This document shows, piece after piece, positions 33,338-42,106 of a stretch of DNA of 42,199 nucleotides (position 1 is its first letter; every line of letters starts with the position of its first letter). The DNA lies in the NCBI GenBank assembly GCA_029974925.1, contig JARKQH010000131.1, positions 1 to 42,199 of the forward strand, read 5' to 3'. The stretch is from Verrucomicrobiota bacterium. Lineage in GTDB: Bacteria > Verrucomicrobiota > Verrucomicrobiia > Limisphaerales > UBA8199. The notes beneath the pieces were generated by a model that did not search any database, was not told where the DNA came from, and was given only the letters and a program-made list of their open reading frames with translations. Both the position numbers and the translations under genes were made by a program.

Positions 33338-36300
33338 TCAGCGCTCCCGGCGGATTTCGCGGAGCACAAAGGGTTCGAACATCCCGTAGGCCACGGTGTG
33401 GTATTGCGCGCCCGGCGGCGGTCCATTATCGGGCCCTTTGTGAAACGCGTTCGGCCAGGCGGCGCCCAAGGCGGGGCTGCCGTGATGCGGCCCGAGCAAA
33501 TTCTTGAGGGTGCCAATGACGGTCACTTCGATTTCATTCGAGCCGCGCTTGATAAACCGCGTGGCGTCGCAAGTCCAGGGCGGCGCATCCACGTACCCCG
33601 CCAGTCTGCCGTTGACGGTGACCCGCGCCACCGCGCCGTGCCAATCGGGAAGGGCCACTTCGTAGCGGTCCGAACGCCGGGTGACGTTGAACCGCTGGGA
33701 ATAGGCAATGCCTCCGCTGTAGAACGGGTGGCCCTGAGCATTCCAGCCATCCCGCGAAAAGCCCATCCCGCTGCCGTCGGTGAGCCTCCGCGCGCTCCGA
33801 TGGCGGGAAGCCAGCTCGCTGGATGCCCCCGCCACGCTGACCGGCTCGACTCGCTCGCCGTCCCGGGCCAAGAACCGCACCTCGGCCAGCCCAACAAAGC
33901 CGTTGTCCGGCGGTTCGCCTTCCGCGGGGAAGACAGTGCCGTTGTGGTTTTCGAGAATGTCGAACCGAACGAAGCGAACCTTGGCATCAGGCAGTTCCAG
34001 GACCGTACCCCCTTCCTCGCCTCCGCCGGCCTTGGGGAGATTGAAAACGCCCAGGTCGAGGTTGAAGGCGCCGGCGGGGCCGTGGGTCCCCCCCGAGATG
34101 CGCAGTCGTTTGACGCCCCGGGAGGTGAGATTTTTGATATGACTTTCGTTGTAGTTATACACCTCGATTTTACCCAGCGCGATTTCACGGCCCAGGTCGA
34201 AGACCAGGAAAGGCGAGCGGTCGTCCGGGCGGTTGTCGCCGGCCGATTTTTCGAAGTTGATTCCGGCGCTGAGCCACATGGTGCCATCCGGATTGTTGGT
34301 GTGGGTGGGACGTTTGTCCCGCCGGCCCAGCTTGAGGGGCTGATCGGGGGCGACGACAAAGCCGCGGTCCGTGGGGCGGAGGGTGAAACTGCCCAGGAGG
34401 TAGGCGGGTTCCAGTTCATGGAACAAGCTGAACGGGCGGGCTTGCAACGTGACGCGGTTGATGCCGGTCCGGGCCAGGGAAGCTATCGGGAGGCGATGAA
34501 AAGCCTTGTCCAGCCACCAGTCCTTGGGATTGGGGGTCACGAGTTGGCCGTTGCAGGTGACGCGGTAAAGGTCCGCCCGCTCAATGACGATGGCCAGGTC
34601 ATTCGGCACGGGGCCTTCGACGGTGAACGTGTAGGTTGCCTCGAAACCACTGTCCGCGGGAAACTGCCGGCGAATCAATTCGTCTTTGAACTGCACCGCG
34701 CTGTCCCAGGGGTTTCGTTCCCAGCCGTTTTTCTTCCAGACGAACTGACCGGCCTGGTAACAATAGGTGTTGGTTTTGGTCTCACCACCCGCGGTGACAT
34801 CCACGTAGTCAATCGTCAGCATATTGGGGCCCAGGCGCCGGATTTTGGGAGGGCCATCAGCCGTGAGCACAGCCGGGGTTTCTCGAGCGAATTGGGCCGG
34901 ACCCGCTTTGGGGCTCAGCAACAGCAGCAGGCTGCCTGACGGGGGCAACTCGAACGCAGCCGTCAGGCCGGCTGCGTGGCGGGTGGCGGGATAGGGCAGA
35001 GTCTTTCCGGTGTAAAGGTCCCATTTTTCCGCGCGGCAAAGATGCGACTCGATCGTGCCACGGGAGGGATGCTCGAGGCTGGTATTGACGAGGAACAACA
35101 GCTCGCCATCGGGCAATTGACGGCGGTGATGGAAGAGGATCCCGCGGTCATTCGCGGCGCGGTGAATGCTGAAGCCTTCGGCTTGCTGGCGCTGCCGGAG
35201 GTCGGCGATGAGCTTGTCGCGCCAGGCGGAGAGCTGGGCCGGGTCCGGCGCCGCCGCCGGTCTTTGGGCGTCTGAAAGCAGGGCGCCATCCACGCGCGAA
35301 GGTTCCGGGCCCGCCGTGTACCGTTTGGTTGCGGTTCGCTCGAACAGCTCGCGGGTCTTCCGGTTGAGGTTTTCAGTATGGGGCGGCAGCACCACGGTAT
35401 GATATTCGCGCCGGCCCACCTTCAGGTGCGTGGCGACGGTCTTGCCATTCACCTGGATGGTCTGGCCGCCGGGCGCCCCGTGCGATGCGAGGATGTCCTC
35501 GCATCCGAGGTCGTATTCGATTTGAGCGGCTTCCAGGGCCATGAGGAGGTCGAAGAAAGCGCTGCCCAGCGCGTTCAACTGTTGGCTGTCCCCCTGGTAC
35601 ATCCAGGCGGTGGTGGTGGGCTCCAGCACCAGCACGCGGTTGATTTGCTGTCCCTGAGACAGCGCCGCGGACAGGCGGGCGAAATAGCGGGCGGAAACGT
35701 GATACGCCTCCCACCACGGATCGTGATAGGAAAAGGACTGGGGATGATCGCGCTTGCGGGCGCCGCGGAGCGTCAGGAAGGTCAGGTGCTGATTGAGGGT
35801 GTTGACGCCCAGAACCTCGAGCCAGTCGCCGATGCGTTTCATGTCCTCGAACCGCAGGTCCCACCCGGCGGCGCCGTAGATTTCGCAGAGCGTTCGGGGC
35901 CAGCCAACCTGGTTGGCCACGCTCGAGAGCTCCTTGACCATGCGGACGTTGCCGAATTGCGCGTGGGTGTGCTCGGCGTATTGGTTCATCAAGCAATCAA
36001 TTGCCGGGCGCTGGTGCCACGCGTACATCGCCATGTTGTCCGGCACGCCCCGGCAGTCCGGCCAGTCATGGTCCCAGTAGTGCCCGGTCCACTCGAGGCG
36101 GTTGGTCCGGCAGTACTCATAATTGGGCCGCGCCCAGCGTTCGACAAACAGCTCATGGAGAAGCTGGTAATAGTTGTGCCGGACCTTGCGCCAATCCCCC
36201 ACCGGGTGGGACAGACTGGGCAGGTGCGCCAGCAGGCTGTAGCCCCAGCGTCGCTCAAATGCCCGGGGCAAATCCTCCGTCCAAGGAAGCCCTTTGGCGG

Positions 36301-37045
36301 GGCGGATGTTGGGTTCGTCGGTGAAGACGCCGGGAACCCGCCGGCCGAACTCCTTCCCGAGCTGCCGCCGGTAGGGCTCCATCGTCACTTCGAGAAATTT
36401 CTCCGTGACGCCCGGTGTCAGCAGGTTCACGTAGCAACGATTCCCGTGCCAGGGCGAGTTTTCCGAGCGCACTTCGGCGGCCACCAGGTACTGCCCTTCC
36501 TCGAATGCGGCTCCAGAGCGGGCCTGCGCGGTCACGTTTTCATATTCCGCGCCGCTCAGACGAAACACGGCCACGAGGTCCGAGGACCACGCCGGCGGAG
36601 TTTTGACCTCGCGCAGGGCCAGGCCACGGCCCCGCGACTCGGGCATGGCGTCCGGCACCAACCCGCCCGCGAAGCCGGAGGGATAGGAGTTCTCGTCGTA
36701 GATCCACACCTTCATATCCAGCCGGGCAGCCTCCTGGAGCGCTACCTTCCAGAGCCGGAACCAATCCTCGCCCAGATAGGGGGTCATGAGTCCGGGCCGG
36801 GGGTGAACCCAAACCTGTTTGACGCCTTGGCGGGCCAGGTCGCGCAGGCTGTCCCGAAGCTGCTCCTCCGTCAGCCAGTCGTTCCACACCCAAAGCGGTC
36901 CGGTGCTGTATTCCGTCGGCGGGTCCCGAAACAAACGGCGGACCTTGGCCGAATCCGGCGGGCCGCCGGCCGCCATCCATGCCGCGGGAAAAAGCCAGAG
37001 AGACAGGGCCAGGAGCGCGATGCCGTTGCAGCCATGACGTTTCAT
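33338..37045 (-). CDS. Very large secreted GH106-like (alpha-L-rhamnosidase family) glycosidase
   Basis: A 1235-residue exported protein. I start it at the ATG at 37045 (MKRHGCNGIALLALSLWLFP), which gives a proper signal peptide. The open frame continues to 37267, but that part is Arg/Pro-rich and overlaps the divergent MarR gene. After the signal comes the GH106-type opening: GPLWVWNDWLTEEQLRDSL, WVHPRPGLMTPYLGEDWF and MKVWIYDENSYPSGFAGG, which form a TIM barrel (to about 600). Beta-sandwich domains follow, including a discoidin-like segment and a C-terminal galactose-binding-like domain (VNGRLAGYVDAPPW, NEIEVTVIGTLKNLLGPHHG). GH106 enzymes remove alpha-L-rhamnose from pectic and other polymers. 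I recognise the family by pattern and did not identify the catalytic Glu pair. Confidence 0.85.
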   Translation of the reverse strand: MKRHGCNGIALLALSLWLFPAAWMAAGGPPDSAKVRRLFRDPPTEYSTGPLWVWNDWLTEEQLRDSLRDLARQGVKQVWVHPRPGLMTPYLGEDWFRLWKVALQEAARLDMKVWIYDENSYPSGFAGGLVPDAMPESRGRGLALREVKTPPAWSSDLVAVFRLSGAEYENVTAQARSGAAFEEGQYLVAAEVRSENSPWHGNRCYVNLLTPGVTEKFLEVTMEPYRRQLGKEFGRRVPGVFTDEPNIRPAKGLPWTEDLPRAFERRWGYSLLAHLPSLSHPVGDWRKVRHNYYQLLHELFVERWARPNYEYCRTNRLEWTGHYWDHDWPDCRGVPDNMAMYAWHQRPAIDCLMNQYAEHTHAQFGNVRMVKELSSVANQVGWPRTLCEIYGAAGWDLRFEDMKRIGDWLEVLGVNTLNQHLTFLTLRGARKRDHPQSFSYHDPWWEAYHVSARYFARLSAALSQGQQINRVLVLEPTTTAWMYQGDSQQLNALGSAFFDLLMALEAAQIEYDLGCEDILASHGAPGGQTIQVNGKTVATHLKVGRREYHTVVLPPHTENLNRKTRELFERTATKRYTAGPEPSRVDGALLSDAQRPAAAPDPAQLSAWRDKLIADLRQRQQAEGFSIHRAANDRGILFHHRRQLPDGELLFLVNTSLEHPSRGTIESHLCRAEKWDLYTGKTLPYPATRHAAGLTAAFELPPSGSLLLLLSPKAGPAQFARETPAVLTADGPPKIRRLGPNMLTIDYVDVTAGGETKTNTYCYQAGQFVWKKNGWERNPWDSAVQFKDELIRRQFPADSGFEATYTFTVEGPVPNDLAIVIERADLYRVTCNGQLVTPNPKDWWLDKAFHRLPIASLARTGINRVTLQARPFSLFHELEPAYLLGSFTLRPTDRGFVVAPDQPLKLGRRDKRPTHTNNPDGTMWLSAGINFEKSAGDNRPDDRSPFLVFDLGREIALGKIEVYNYNESHIKNLTSRGVKRLRISGGTHGPAGAFNLDLGVFNLPKAGGGEEGGTVLELPDAKVRFVRFDILENHNGTVFPAEGEPPDNGFVGLAEVRFLARDGERVEPVSVAGASSELASRHRSARRLTDGSGMGFSRDGWNAQGHPFYSGGIAYSQRFNVTRRSDRYEVALPDWHGAVARVTVNGRLAGYVDAPPWTCDATRFIKRGSNEIEVTVIGTLKNLLGPHHGSPALGAAWPNAFHKGPDNGPPPGAQYHTVAYGMFEPFVLREIRRER

Positions 37046-37230
37046 AATGTGCCAGGTGCGCGCCATTCTGCGGCAGCCGGGAACCAAAGCAAGCACGGAC
37101 CTCGGCCAACGACCCCGGGCAGGCGTGGACACACCAAGAGGGGGGCGGCCGGTCCGGGCCGCCGAGGGGAACCCGGGGAGGGGGGACGGGGCCGGAACCC
37201 GGAGGGTTCGAAAATAACGCATTACAACAG

Positions 37231-37259
37231 TTGACACATAAACAATAATATAGTAAACA
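37231..37259 (+). promoter_or_regulatory. Promoter/operator region of the MarR gene
   Basis: A perfect TTGACA (37231-37236) and a weak -10 (TAAACA, 37254-37259) at 17 bases place the transcript start on the MarR ATG at 37266, which implies a leaderless mRNA. The region is AT-rich in a GC-rich neighbourhood. It contains a direct repeat TAAACA (37239-37244 and 37254-37259) and outer inverted arms GTTGACA (37230-37236) / TGACAAC (37267-37273) with one mismatch. These are candidate sites for autoregulation by MarR and for control of the divergent GH106-like gene. Confidence 0.35.
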
Positions 37260-37265
37260 GTATGC

Positions 37266-37733
37266 ATGACAACAGAGCCTGAGGCCGGGCGGCCGCGCTA
37301 TCGGACGCTGCTGGAGTTGCTCCGAACCGCGGATACCATTTGGGACGCCAGCCGTGTTTTCTTCGCGCGGTGGGACCTCAGCCCCAGCCAGTTCAACGTG
37401 TTGAACCTTCTGCATCTGAATCCCGAAGGGTTATCCCAGGCGGACTTGAGCCGTTTCCTGATCATGCACCGTTCGAATGTGACGGGCCTGGTGGACCGTT
37501 TGGAGCAGCGCGGTCTGGTGGCACGGCGGGATGTCGTTGGCGACCGGCGCGCCTACCGGGTCCGGCTGACCGCGGCGGGCGAGCGCCTGGTGCGGGAGAT
37601 TCTGCCGCGGTATTATCAAGGGGCGGAGCGGCTTTGGGGCCGGGTACCGGACCGGCGGCTGGCGGAGTTGCGGGAGTTGCTGCTGCTGGCCGCGGAAAAC
37701 GCTCGGCGGATTGCGTCGGAACTGCGACATTAA
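37266..37733 (+). CDS. MarR-family transcriptional regulator
   Basis: A 155-residue winged helix-turn-helix repressor. The DNA-binding domain spans about 38-105: LSPSQFNVLNLL, the recognition helix region LSRFLIMHRSNVTGLVDRL and the wing DVVGDRRAYRVRLTAAG with D93/R94. N- and C-terminal helices form the dimer. MarR proteins usually repress their own operon and release DNA on binding a small phenolic or lipophilic ligand. It is the first gene of a plus-strand run that continues with the MFS, Aas-like and hydrolase genes. It is divergent from the GH106-like gene across about 220 bases. No Shine-Dalgarno is seen before the ATG at 37266, fitting a leaderless transcript. Confidence 0.9.
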   Translation: MTTEPEAGRPRYRTLLELLRTADTIWDASRVFFARWDLSPSQFNVLNLLHLNPEGLSQADLSRFLIMHRSNVTGLVDRLEQRGLVARRDVVGDRRAYRVRLTAAGERLVREILPRYYQGAERLWGRVPDRRLAELRELLLLAAENARRIASELRH

Positions 37734-37752
37734 ACTTCAATTCACAACCATC

Positions 37753-39183
37753 ATGAACCCGGCCTCTTCCTCCCCCGGCGCGACCCCTGACGCCCCCCGT
37801 TCGTTTCCCGGGGCGCGGCCCGCGCTGGCACTGCTGCTGTTGATCAACCTCTTCAACTACATTGACCGGCAGGTCCTGGCGGCCGTGGTGGACCCGATCA
37901 AACAGTCGTTGTTCGGCGCCGGCGAAACGGCCGCCGGCACGCTTGGGGTGTTGCAGGAATGGTGCCGGTCCCATTTGGGCTTCAAGCCGGAGCTGGCCTT
38001 CATTGGCGTGCTGTCCATGGCGTTCATGGTGACCTACATGCTGGGCGCTCCCCTGTTTGGGCGGCTGGCCGAGCGACGGTCGCGCTGGGTGATCATCAGC
38101 ATCGGCGTGATGCTGTGGAGCCTGGCGAGCGGCGCCTCGGGCCTGGCCGCCACGTTCTTCGTGCTCCTGCTGACGCGATGCATGGTGGGAATTGGCGAGG
38201 CCGCCTACGGCCCGGTCGCGCCGGCGTTGATCTCCGATTACTATCCGGTCAAGGTGCGGGGACGGGTGCTGGCCTTGTTTTACATGGCCATCCCCGTCGG
38301 CAGCGCCCTGGGCTATGTTCTGGGCGGGGCGGTGTCCCGCTCGGGAATCGGCCATTGGGGGGCGCAGTGGCTGGGAATTCAGGCGGAGAGCTGGCGCTGG
38401 GCCTTCTACCTGGTGGTGGTGCCGGGCCTGATCCTGGGACTGTGGAGCTTGTTTATGCGCGAGCCGCCCCGGGGCCAGGCCGACCTCGCGCAACCGGGCG
38501 CCCCCCGCAAAGTGCATTGGCGGGATTACCGGATTCTGCTCCGCACCCCCTCCTATGTGTTGTGTACTCTGGGCATGACCGCCATGACTTTTGCCATCGG
38601 CGGGATTGCCTTCTGGATGCCGTATTATTTGAAGCATCGGCCGGGCGCCGAGGGGCCGGTCGAGGTGATTTTTGGAGCGATTACTTGTGTGGCGGGCCTG
38701 GTTGGAACTCTGGCGGGCGGCTGGCTGGGGGACAGGCTTCGCGCGCGGATTCCGGGTTCGTATTTTCTGGTTTCGGGGCTGGCGATGTTGGTGGGGTTTC
38801 CCTTCATGCTGGCCACGCTGCGGGCTCCGTTCCCTGCGATCTGGATCTTGATTTTCGTCACGTGCTTTTGCCTGTTCTTCAACACGGGTCCCGCCAACAC
38901 CATTCTGGCCAACGTGACGCATCCTTCGATGCGCAGCGCGGCGTTTGCCCTCAACATCTTCGTCATTCATGCGCTGGGCGACGTGATTTCGCCCGTGATT
39001 ATTGGCATCGTGAGCGACCGAACCTCCATGAACCATGCGTTTACCCTGGTCGGGGCGATGTTCGTGCTGGCGGGCATTCTCTGGCTCTGCGGCATGCGAT
39101 TTCTCCGGCGGGACACCGAACTGGCGACGACCCGGTTTGGCGTCCCGCAGCCGGCGCCGCCGGCCGCCGTTGAAAACCGATGA
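37753..39183 (+). CDS. Spinster-type MFS transporter, likely lysophospholipid transporter partner of Aas
   Basis: A 476-residue twelve-helix major-facilitator protein. I start it at the ATG at 37753 (MNPASSSPGATPDAP), 19 bases after the MarR stop. The open frame reaches 37711, overlapping marR. The sequence carries Spinster (SPNS) signatures: LINLFNYIDRQVLAAV in helix 1, GAPLFGRLAERRSRW in loop 2-3 and, in helices 4-5, MVGIGEAAYGPVAPALI, RVLALFYMAIPVGSALGY. Eukaryotic SPNS proteins move sphingosine-1-phosphate or lysophospholipids. The next gene, an Aas-type enzyme, starts inside its stop codon (ATGA). In E. coli, the MFS protein LplT flips lysophospholipids inward for Aas, so an analogous role is inferred here. 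Confidence 0.88.
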   Translation: MNPASSSPGATPDAPRSFPGARPALALLLLINLFNYIDRQVLAAVVDPIKQSLFGAGETAAGTLGVLQEWCRSHLGFKPELAFIGVLSMAFMVTYMLGAPLFGRLAERRSRWVIISIGVMLWSLASGASGLAATFFVLLLTRCMVGIGEAAYGPVAPALISDYYPVKVRGRVLALFYMAIPVGSALGYVLGGAVSRSGIGHWGAQWLGIQAESWRWAFYLVVVPGLILGLWSLFMREPPRGQADLAQPGAPRKVHWRDYRILLRTPSYVLCTLGMTAMTFAIGGIAFWMPYYLKHRPGAEGPVEVIFGAITCVAGLVGTLAGGWLGDRLRARIPGSYFLVSGLAMLVGFPFMLATLRAPFPAIWILIFVTCFCLFFNTGPANTILANVTHPSMRSAAFALNIFVIHALGDVISPVIIGIVSDRTSMNHAFTLVGAMFVLAGILWLCGMRFLRRDTELATTRFGVPQPAPPAAVENR

Positions 39184-41309
39184 AGACCCTTCTCCGATTC
39201 CTGTTGCGGCTCCTTTACGGATTTCGGGCCTACAATGAGCAGGTGGTCCGGACGCCCGGCCCGGTTCTGCTCCTGCCCAACCACGTTTCGTGGTGGGACT
39301 GGCTGTTGGTGGGGGTTTGCCTCGAGGACGACTGGCGATTCGTCACCTCCCGAACCACCGCGCAACTAAGCTGGTTTCACAAGCGAATCATGATCAACCG
39401 GCGGACGTTTCCGGTGGACGTCAATTCTCCCTACGCGGTGAAACACATCGCGGAGTATCTCCAACAGGGCGGCCGGCTGGTGTTGTTTCCCGAGGGGCGC
39501 ATCTCCCACACCGGCGCCTTGATGAAGTTGTTTGAGGGGACGGGCTTTCTGGTGGCCAAAACGCGGGCAAAAATCGTCACGGCCTACTTGCGCGGCGCGG
39601 CGCGGCTGCCATACTCGCGCAACCCGAACCGCAAGCAATGGTTCCCGCGAATCAGCGTCCATTTCAGTCCCATCCAAACCCCGCCGCAGTTGGATCACTT
39701 AAGCGCGGCGGCCGCGCGCTTGCGGCTCACCAACTGGCTCCGCGACCGCCTCATCCGCCAGCAGTTCGAGGTGGAAATGGAGTTTGGCCGGGCAACCGTT
39801 CCGGATGCGCTGCTCGACGCCGCACGGCGCCACGCGGGGAAGGTCATTCTCCAGGACGCCACCTATCAAAAGCTGACTTACCGTCGTTGGTTTGCGGCGG
39901 CGACGGTGCTGGCGGGGAAATGGAACCGTCTTGAAACCGGCGGCGCGCAGCGGGTGGGGGTGCTTTTGCCCAACGTCAACGCCCTGCCCGTCACTCTGGT
40001 GAGCCTTTGGGCTGCGGGCAAAGTGCCGGCGGTCCTGAACTACACAACCGGGATTGCCAGCCTGCTGGCGTGCGCGCGCGTCGCCGCCCTGACCCACGTG
40101 GTCACGTCCCGGACTTTCCTCACGCGCGCGAAGCTGGACTTGTCGGCGTTTGAGCAGGCTGGCATCGAACTGCTTTTCCTGGAGGATCTCCGGGCCGGCG
40201 TGGGGGCCTGGCAGAGGGTGGGCGCCCTGCTGCGGCAGTTTCCCCGCCTTCGCCTGCCGCGCGCCCCGCGTCCACCATCAGGTTCCGACCCGGCAATCAT
40301 CCTCTTTACCAGCGGGTCCGAAGGCGAGCCCAAGGCCGTTGAACTGACCCACCGGAATTTGCTGGCCAACATCCGGCAAATGGATTCGATCATTGACGTG
40401 ATGGAGACCGACCGGTTCTTCAACGCCCTGCCGCTGTTTCACAGTTTCGGGCTGACGGTGGGTCTGCTGCTGCCGCTCGTTCGCGGCGTGTTTGTTTTTG
40501 TTTACCTCTCGCCGCTGCATTACCGCCTGGTGCCGGCTGCTTTCTACGACCTGAACTGCACAGTGTTCTTCGGCACCAACACCTTCCTCAACGGTTATGC
40601 GCGGCGGGCCAGTCCCTACGATTTCCGCACCGCGCGATACCTTTTTGCCGGCGCCGAAAAGCTTCAGGACGCGACCGTGACGACCTGGATGCAGAAATTC
40701 GGCGTGCGCATTCTCGAGGGATATGGCGCGACCGAATGCAGTCCGTGCATCAGTGCCAACACGCCGATGCGGCCGCGGCCGGGCTCCGCGGGCGAACTTT
40801 TGCCGGGCATCGAATACCGCCTCGAACCCGTCGAGGGAGTGCCCGAGGGCGGCCGGCTTTTTGTCCGGGGCCCGAATGTCATGCGCGGGTATCTCAACCC
40901 GGAAGCGAACGCCAAATTCCAGTCACTGGGGGGGTGGTACGACACGGGGGACATGGTCAAGGTGGATGAGGACGGCTATTTATACATCCTCGGCCGCTTG
41001 AAGCGGTTTGCCAAGGTCAGCGGCGAGATGGTCAGCCTTACGGCGGTGGAGGAGGCGCTCGCCGGGGCCTTTCCCCAGTACGGCCTGAAGTGCGCGGTTG
41101 CCGTGGTCGCCAAACCGGACGAGGCCAAGGGCGAAAAGCTGATTGCTGTGACCAACGAACCCCGGCTCACGCTTGACGCGTTGCGGGAGGTGATTCGCGC
41201 CCGGGGATTCAGCAACCTGGCCGTGCCGCGTGAACTGAAGGTGATTCGCGAGATTCCCCGCCTCGGCACCGGCAAGATCAACCACCGCGAGTTGCAGCGA
41301 CTCGTGTGA
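39180..41309 (+). CDS. Aas-type acyltransferase / acyl-ACP synthetase fusion
   Basis: A 709-residue protein with the same layout and nearly the same length as E. coli Aas (719). Residues 20-195 are a PlsC-type acyltransferase with the NHxxxxD motif (N34-H35...D40, PNHVSWWDWL) and LFPEGRIS (102-109). Residues about 205-709 are an AMP-binding acyl synthetase: P-loop LFTSGSEGEPKAVELTH, GYGATECSP (514-522), WYDTGD and the C-terminal catalytic Lys (K699 in GTGKINHREL). In E. coli, Aas activates fatty acids on ACP and re-acylates lysophosphatidylethanolamine at the inner membrane. The gene overlaps the MFS stop by four bases and is followed by an overlapping hydrolase, so the three genes are translationally coupled. 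Domains are firm; substrate use is inferred. Confidence 0.93.
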   Translation: MKTLLRFLLRLLYGFRAYNEQVVRTPGPVLLLPNHVSWWDWLLVGVCLEDDWRFVTSRTTAQLSWFHKRIMINRRTFPVDVNSPYAVKHIAEYLQQGGRLVLFPEGRISHTGALMKLFEGTGFLVAKTRAKIVTAYLRGAARLPYSRNPNRKQWFPRISVHFSPIQTPPQLDHLSAAAARLRLTNWLRDRLIRQQFEVEMEFGRATVPDALLDAARRHAGKVILQDATYQKLTYRRWFAAATVLAGKWNRLETGGAQRVGVLLPNVNALPVTLVSLWAAGKVPAVLNYTTGIASLLACARVAALTHVVTSRTFLTRAKLDLSAFEQAGIELLFLEDLRAGVGAWQRVGALLRQFPRLRLPRAPRPPSGSDPAIILFTSGSEGEPKAVELTHRNLLANIRQMDSIIDVMETDRFFNALPLFHSFGLTVGLLLPLVRGVFVFVYLSPLHYRLVPAAFYDLNCTVFFGTNTFLNGYARRASPYDFRTARYLFAGAEKLQDATVTTWMQKFGVRILEGYGATECSPCISANTPMRPRPGSAGELLPGIEYRLEPVEGVPEGGRLFVRGPNVMRGYLNPEANAKFQSLGGWYDTGDMVKVDEDGYLYILGRLKRFAKVSGEMVSLTAVEEALAGAFPQYGLKCAVAVVAKPDEAKGEKLIAVTNEPRLTLDALREVIRARGFSNLAVPRELKVIREIPRLGTGKINHRELQRLV

Positions 41310-42106
41310 AAGGGAGGACGCATCCGGAGAACATGGCGGCGGATTCCGAGCCCGAGCAGGTGCGGTTGCGAGTGCATGGCGCCCCGGATCAGGCGACCGT
41401 GGTTTACCTGCCCGGGTTGCATGGGGACTGGACCCTGGTCGGAGCCTTTCGTCTGGCCTTGGGCGGGCAGGTGCGGTTTGTCGAAATGACCTATCCGCGC
41501 ACCGTGACCTGGACTTTGGAGGATTACGCCGCGGGAATCGAACGAGCGCTGGCTGAGGCGGGAATTGCGAGCGGCTGGGTTCTTGCCGAATCGTTCGGAT
41601 GCCAGGTTGCCTGGCCGTTGGTCGCCCGGCAACGATTCCATGCCGCCGGTCTGATTCTCGCGGGTGGATTTGGACGTTATCCGCTCCGCTGGGCCGTCCG
41701 TCTGAGTGAGCGGCTTTGTGGACGTGTCTCGCTTGCGCTGCTGACGCGGGTTTTGTTCGGATACGCTCGAATGCTCCGTTGGCGCTATGGAAATTCGCCC
41801 GACCTTGCGGCCAGCCTGCGCGAATTCCTCGAACGCCGCACCGAGGCGGACCGGCAGGCTGCTGTCCACCGCTTAAGGCTCATCGCCGGGAATCACCCGG
41901 AGGACCTCGTCCGACGAATTCAGGTTCCGGTTCATGCCCTGACCGGGTTCGTGGACCCCGTCGTGCCCTGGCCGTTCGTCCGGTGTTGGCTGCGGCGAAA
42001 CTGTCCCAACCTGCGTTCGTATCGGATCATCTGGGGATCGGACCACAACGTCCTCGGCACCGCGCCTCGCCGCGCGGCCCAACAGGTGCTCGCCTGGATG
42101 CAGTAA
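41306..42106 (+). CDS. Alpha/beta hydrolase coupled to the Aas-like gene
   Basis: A 266-residue cytoplasmic alpha/beta hydrolase. The strand-turn after beta-3 is VVYLPGLHGDW (oxyanion region). The nucleophile elbow is LAESFGCQ with S96 (Ala replaces the first Gly of GxSxG), the acid is probably D217 (GFVDPVVPW), and the His is H247 (GSDHNVLG). The start is a GTG at 41306 that overlaps the upstream stop as GTGA. An ATG at 41333 with GGAG just before it is the alternative. Operon position suggests a lysophospholipase, thioesterase or esterase acting on the lipids handled by the two genes before it, but the substrate is not shown by the sequence. Confidence 0.82.
   Translation: MKGRTHPENMAADSEPEQVRLRVHGAPDQATVVYLPGLHGDWTLVGAFRLALGGQVRFVEMTYPRTVTWTLEDYAAGIERALAEAGIASGWVLAESFGCQVAWPLVARQRFHAAGLILAGGFGRYPLRWAVRLSERLCGRVSLALLTRVLFGYARMLRWRYGNSPDLAASLREFLERRTEADRQAAVHRLRLIAGNHPEDLVRRIQVPVHALTGFVDPVVPWPFVRCWLRRNCPNLRSYRIIWGSDHNVLGTAPRRAAQQVLAWMQ

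Follow-up and report, generated by a model that had tools for sequence, protein, structure and literature searches.

The closest described system is that of Escherichia coli, where lplT and aas constitute a bicistronic operon whose products form a complex (PMC11416262). The same three activities, those of an MFS transporter, a PlsC-type acyltransferase and an AMP-ligase, are also found fused in single proteins (PRK06814, PRK08633), the MFS part of which is LplT-like. In eukaryotes, lysophospholipids are transported in the lysosome by SPNS1, an MFS protein of the Spinster family, for which R76, E164 and H427 have been proposed to contact LPC, R76 and E164 being required for LPC transport according to mutation (PMC10115416). 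Spinster proteins from bacteria are used as structural models of SPNS1 and SPNS2, and the best known of them, HnSpns, has been termed an orphan transporter, without an agreed natural substrate.

The operon described here lies in a 42,199-nucleotide stretch of a Verrucomicrobiota contig, JARKQH010000131.1 (the window), and resembles the LplT-Aas system of E. coli in that an MFS transporter adjoins a bifunctional Aas, which is collinear with the E. coli protein and 40% identical to it, and in that LplT itself is found in sister operons. It differs in that the transporter is a Spinster protein placed 5' of Aas, and in the addition of a dedicated MarR regulator with its operator and of a hydrolase, to which relatives often add an Lnt-like nitrilase. 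A search of mostly open-access literature rendered no paper linking a bacterial Spinster protein with LplT or Aas. We regard the operon as an undescribed form of the LplT-Aas system, for which the genomic context gives good support, with transport as a predicted activity.

The genes of the window

As originally predicted, four genes are present on the plus strand between positions 37266 and 42106. The first (37266..37733) encodes a putative repressor of the MarR family, of 155 aa (Pfam MarR_2, 2.6e-16, which exceeds the cut-off), and it is followed by the Spinster-family MFS transporter in the LplT slot (476 aa, 37753..39183), by Aas (2-acylglycerophosphoethanolamine acyltransferase / acyl-ACP synthetase; 709 aa, 39180..41309) and by an alpha/beta hydrolase ORF (41306..42106), the contig ending 93 nt past the latter. 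The transporter ORF had been listed from a TTG at 37711, inside the MarR gene; the aligned N-terminus and the spacing point to the ATG at 37753, which leaves a gap of 19 nt after the MarR stop codon. Four-base overlaps had been ascribed to the last three genes, of which the ATGA between the transporter and Aas (39180-39183) is firm, but the GTGA between Aas and the hydrolase, although present in the sequence, where the hydrolase ORF opens with a GTG at 41306, is doubtful as an overlap because the orthologues begin near the in-frame ATG at 41333, which is probably the true start. Divergent from the MarR gene, a long ORF of the minus strand (33338-37267) bears a weak match to Glyco_hydro_106 (alpha-L-rhamnosidase), and its true start is probably well within the listed ORF.

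The MFS protein belongs to the Spinster family and is not LplT. Besides carrying the signature motifs noticed at first, it matched human SPNS1 and SPNS2 in sequence similarity searches at 1.3e-51 to 2e-42 (best scores 1.3e-51 for SPNS1 and 1.1e-48 for SPNS2, over residues 72-447, so that both halves are covered), ahead of HnSpns at 5e-29. In a Foldseek search with its AF2 model (pLDDT 82.7), the top 16 matches were Spns1, Spns2 and HnSpns, the best solved structure being human Spns1 with LPC (32% identity), then Spns2, then HnSpns, which at 22-23% identity is more distant than the human proteins. Both sequence and fold therefore group the protein with Spinster transporters rather than with drug or sugar exporters. 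E. coli LplT was ruled out as its counterpart, the BLASTP match being restricted to 111 residues of MFS motif (4e-6), and PRK11195, the LplT model, was not among the 25 matches listed for the protein. No second LplT was found elsewhere in the window's genome at 1e-40, nor any PDB relative of LplT for fold comparison at 0.001.

The residues of the Spinster proton switch, whose roles are described in PMC9440201, are all present (the D and R of TM1, the R and E of TM4, and a D in the TM4 charge relay), and D38/R39 (TM1), R142/E149 (TM4), D162, H406 and D410 are invariant among seven close orthologues. The TM1 D/R and TM4 R/E are likewise shared with HnSpns and mycobacterial MsSpns, and R39, E149 and H406 align with R76, E164 and H427 of SPNS1, which are thus conserved. 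For the acid-arginine pair of the outer gate (SPNS1 D94), E80 lies roughly in the corresponding position, the alignment being uncertain there owing to the long TM1-TM2 loop, and the R partner varies; this loop is ca. 20 residues longer in the clade of the window protein than in other bacterial Spinster proteins. Unlike SPNS1, the window protein is found in a bacterial inner-membrane context and is genetically tied to Aas. The LPC-contact residues were considered as a test of substrate and dropped, since Spinster paralogues far from any Aas gene keep the key residues, these included, equally well; they mark the family and not the substrate.

The full Aas layout that had been recognized in the 709-residue protein was borne out. 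Within one chain, PlsC (PF01553) precedes the AMP-ligase (PF00501), both above the Pfam cut-off; identity with E. coli Aas is 40% end to end (722 columns), and both the ligase core and the motifs of the acyltransferase, HX4D (NHVSWWD) and FPEGR, are intact. Its nearest NCBIfam model is PRK06814 (4.9e-224; 746.7 bits against a cut-off of 1349), a model built for a 1140-aa fusion, of which it corresponds to the C-terminal part, whereas its score against PRK08043, 582 bits against a cut-off of 886, refers to a model apparently tuned to close relatives of E. coli. In contrast to the fusions, the transporter here is a separate Spinster protein. This is the only full-length Aas in the window's genome.

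The transporter slot beside Aas

The close matches that bear names are Verrucomicrobiota MAGs, and Aas was found in 47 of 58 relatives (1e-100). The gene order is conserved among them, and across the order the operon follows the plan MarR - [Spinster, LplT or none] - [Lnt-like nitrilase or none] - Aas - hydrolase. The four-gene unit MarR-Spinster-Aas-hydrolase postulated at the outset is real, but it is one of several states of a modular operon that often has the nitrilase as a fifth gene. Where more than 4 kb of upstream sequence was available (40 loci), the transporter slot was occupied by Spinster in 10 and by LplT in 12 and was empty in 18, and a MarR orthologue was the first gene at 21 of these 40 informative loci. 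With the window included, as well as loci that have less flanking sequence, Spinster adjoins Aas in 11 cases, LplT in 14 and both in none, counts that are uncorrected for shared descent.

The LplT-type proteins of the sister operons gave matches of 2e-60 to 2e-65 to PRK11195, the equivalog model for LplT, although short of its cut-off. In a set of 320 genomes from the order, 22 had a Spinster orthologue (1e-120) and 90 had LplT (1e-90), with only two genomes, G101 and G102, having both; in these, LplT adjoins Aas and the Spinster gene is on another contig. None of the 12 genomes in which Spinster is beside Aas has LplT, 3.4 being expected (P 0.017, without correction for descent). In an Aas tree computed with a simpler model after leaving out long branches, the Spinster-type operons (families f1, f11, f42 and f58) were united as one clade in none of 200 bootstrap trees, and the topology forces at least five transporter changes, for which gain and loss are indistinguishable. 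Since the Spinster-type operons are not one clade of this tree, the exchange of LplT for Spinster in the Aas operon has recurred. That a Spinster protein fills the slot held in sister operons by a true LplT orthologue supports, on stronger grounds than were then available, the proposal, made in the original prediction, that a lysophospholipid pathway has been rebuilt here with a Spinster transporter.

Not all Spinster genes are linked to Aas. Eight of 20 informative orthologues do not adjoin it, and most genomes with an unlinked Spinster gene have Aas elsewhere, Aas not being found in G158 and G265, both with unlinked Spinster. It could be the case that the protein moves a different acyl substrate, by export or by flipping (free fatty acid, sphingoid or glycolipid), and that Aas activates the acyl chain of this substrate, lysophospholipid not being the main cargo. 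The separate location of some orthologues agrees with this, as do the transport of sphingosine-1-phosphate by SPNS2 and the sharing of the key residues by family members of differing context. However, the protein changes places, within a conserved operon, with LplT, a transporter known to carry lysophospholipid, and Aas has both the PlsC and the ligase domain with intact catalytic motifs, which renders this alternative improbable.

Other arrangements of the same genes were observed. In G036, a Spinster gene of a distant clade lies directly 5' of a PRK08633-type Aas gene (L133:5821-9342), a second kind of Spinster-Aas pair, and in G115 a Spinster gene of the main clade directly precedes an Aas gene of this type, which is normally fused to an LplT-like MFS domain; these pairs lend the exchange further support. 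In G485 (L139) a Spinster gene and an Aas-like gene lie on opposite strands in divergent orientation. ORFs of 1130-1300 aa whose N-terminus resembles LplT, and which probably encode LplT-PlsC-ligase fusions, were noted in G007, G008, G011, G013, G034, G039, G047, G053 and G054, the first four of which have a separate Aas as well.

The predicted operator and the variable genes

A putative MarR operator, a degenerate form of the palindrome ATTGTTGACATATCAACAATC, spans the operon promoter at 37229..37259 of the plus strand. The promoter consists of a -35 box, TTGACA (37231-37236), a 17-nt spacer and a -10 box, TAAACA (37254-37259), and the ATG of the MarR gene is 6 nt past the latter, so that the operon message is probably leaderless. 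The same layout is seen in 26 operons, where the TTGACA within ATTGTTGACATATCAACAATC is the -35 box and is followed by a TAAACA-type -10 box and, a few bases on, by the MarR start. The consensus was found in all 26 aligned MarR upstream regions, with matches at 14-21 of 21 positions, compared with a modal 10 in random 150-mers; 16 or more matches were present in 25 of the 26 regions and in ca. 0.1% of random 150-mers. From the position of this operator, MarR would act as a repressor of the operon.

A search of ten genomes with the core pattern, allowing up to one mismatch, located the operator solely at the Aas operon in six, including that of the window; three had one extra one-mismatch site, and in G032, with a more degenerate operator, none was found. 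The arrangement recurs in many genomes and the upstream operator is found once in this one, which argues against a chance association. MarR-MFS pairs are common efflux modules, and it might be thought that MarR and Spinster form a pair for the efflux of drugs or toxic compounds with Aas downstream by chance. Indeed, versatile drug transport has been reported for a mycobacterial Spns (PMC13192786). Nevertheless, this MarR and its operator stand at the start of the operon whether the transporter is Spinster, LplT or absent, from which it follows that the regulator goes with Aas recycling rather than with an efflux pump; each genome has a single copy of the operator or close to it, and in fold the transporter is nearest to SPNS1 with LPC, above drug pumps. 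We therefore consider efflux an unlikely explanation.

The fifth gene of many relatives, located between the transporter and Aas (L096:4460-5791, L084:4643-5971 and L066:4622-5953, among others), encodes a 440-aa membrane nitrilase with LNT_N and CN_hydrolase domains and is absent from the window's genome. PFGEY is a motif of E. coli Lnt; the in-operon protein has PIQFF in its place, with a conserved E-K-C triad, and scored 98 and 94 bits against TIGR00546 (cut-off 132.9). On these grounds, and with a separate true Lnt located elsewhere in 56 of 58 genomes, it was ruled out as the true Lnt and is considered an in-operon paralogue of it. In G005 (L057:7913-8605) the gene lacks its middle part (model positions 106-314), including the catalytic E and K, and is likely a decaying copy. 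Since Lnt releases lyso-PE (PMC11416262), the Lnt-like gene may by analogy be a source of lyso-PE.

The hydrolase matched no Pfam or NCBIfam family above cut-off. The alpha/beta hydrolase assignment made from the sequence holds, the AF2 model (pLDDT 90.9) having this fold by Foldseek, with a Ser87-Asp208-His238 triad (numbered from the ATG at 41333) in which S and H are invariant and D nearly so among orthologues. In structure the protein is nearest to a variety of esterases and receptors, and orthologues were found in 35 of 58 relatives, some outside the operon. The role as lysophospholipase or thioesterase that had been suggested is, on the other hand, a guess, to which we assign slightly less than an even chance.

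Predicted pathway and significance

With good confidence, we propose that the Spinster protein would flip lysophospholipid, which Aas would then re-acylate, in a recycling operon of the LplT-Aas type in which Spinster replaces LplT; against this speak the unlinked Spinster genes, with two genomes among these in which Aas was not found, the operons of the order that have no transporter, and the drug transport reported for related bacterial Spns proteins. Lysophospholipids, mainly lyso-PE, would arise from lipoprotein N-acylation, phospholipases or membrane damage. The proton-coupled Spinster protein would flip them from the periplasmic leaflet of the inner membrane to the cytoplasmic one, a direction assumed by analogy, and Aas would make acyl-ACP from fatty acid and re-acylate the lysophospholipid to diacyl phospholipid. 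MarR would repress the operon at the palindrome over its own promoter, presumably being released by a lipid or fatty-acid ligand, and the hydrolase would probably clear surplus lysophospholipid or acyl thioester. The gene identities, the modular operon with its conservation, the exchange of transporters and the common operator are established, whereas we infer lysophospholipid as the Spinster substrate, and likewise the MarR ligand, repression by MarR and the hydrolase substrate. More tentatively, and with a rather low expectation of being right, the five-gene form may be a self-contained acyl-recycling circuit, in which the Lnt-like nitrilase would move phospholipid acyl chains to a new acceptor other than a lipoprotein. 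Spinster or LplT would flip the lysophospholipids so formed, Aas would re-acylate them, the hydrolase would remove the excess and MarR would sense lysolipid or fatty acid; the two transporters would then be interchangeable, and lysophospholipid flipping would be an old function of bacterial Spinster proteins.

Whereas HnSpns is an orphan, the operon of the window points to a substrate and gives bacterial Spinster proteins a testable job in a bacterial system. The repeated exchange with LplT beside Aas represents the evidence of a natural experiment that bacterial Spinster proteins move lysophospholipids, and it bears on whether the flipping of lysolipids is older than the lysosomal role of SPNS1.
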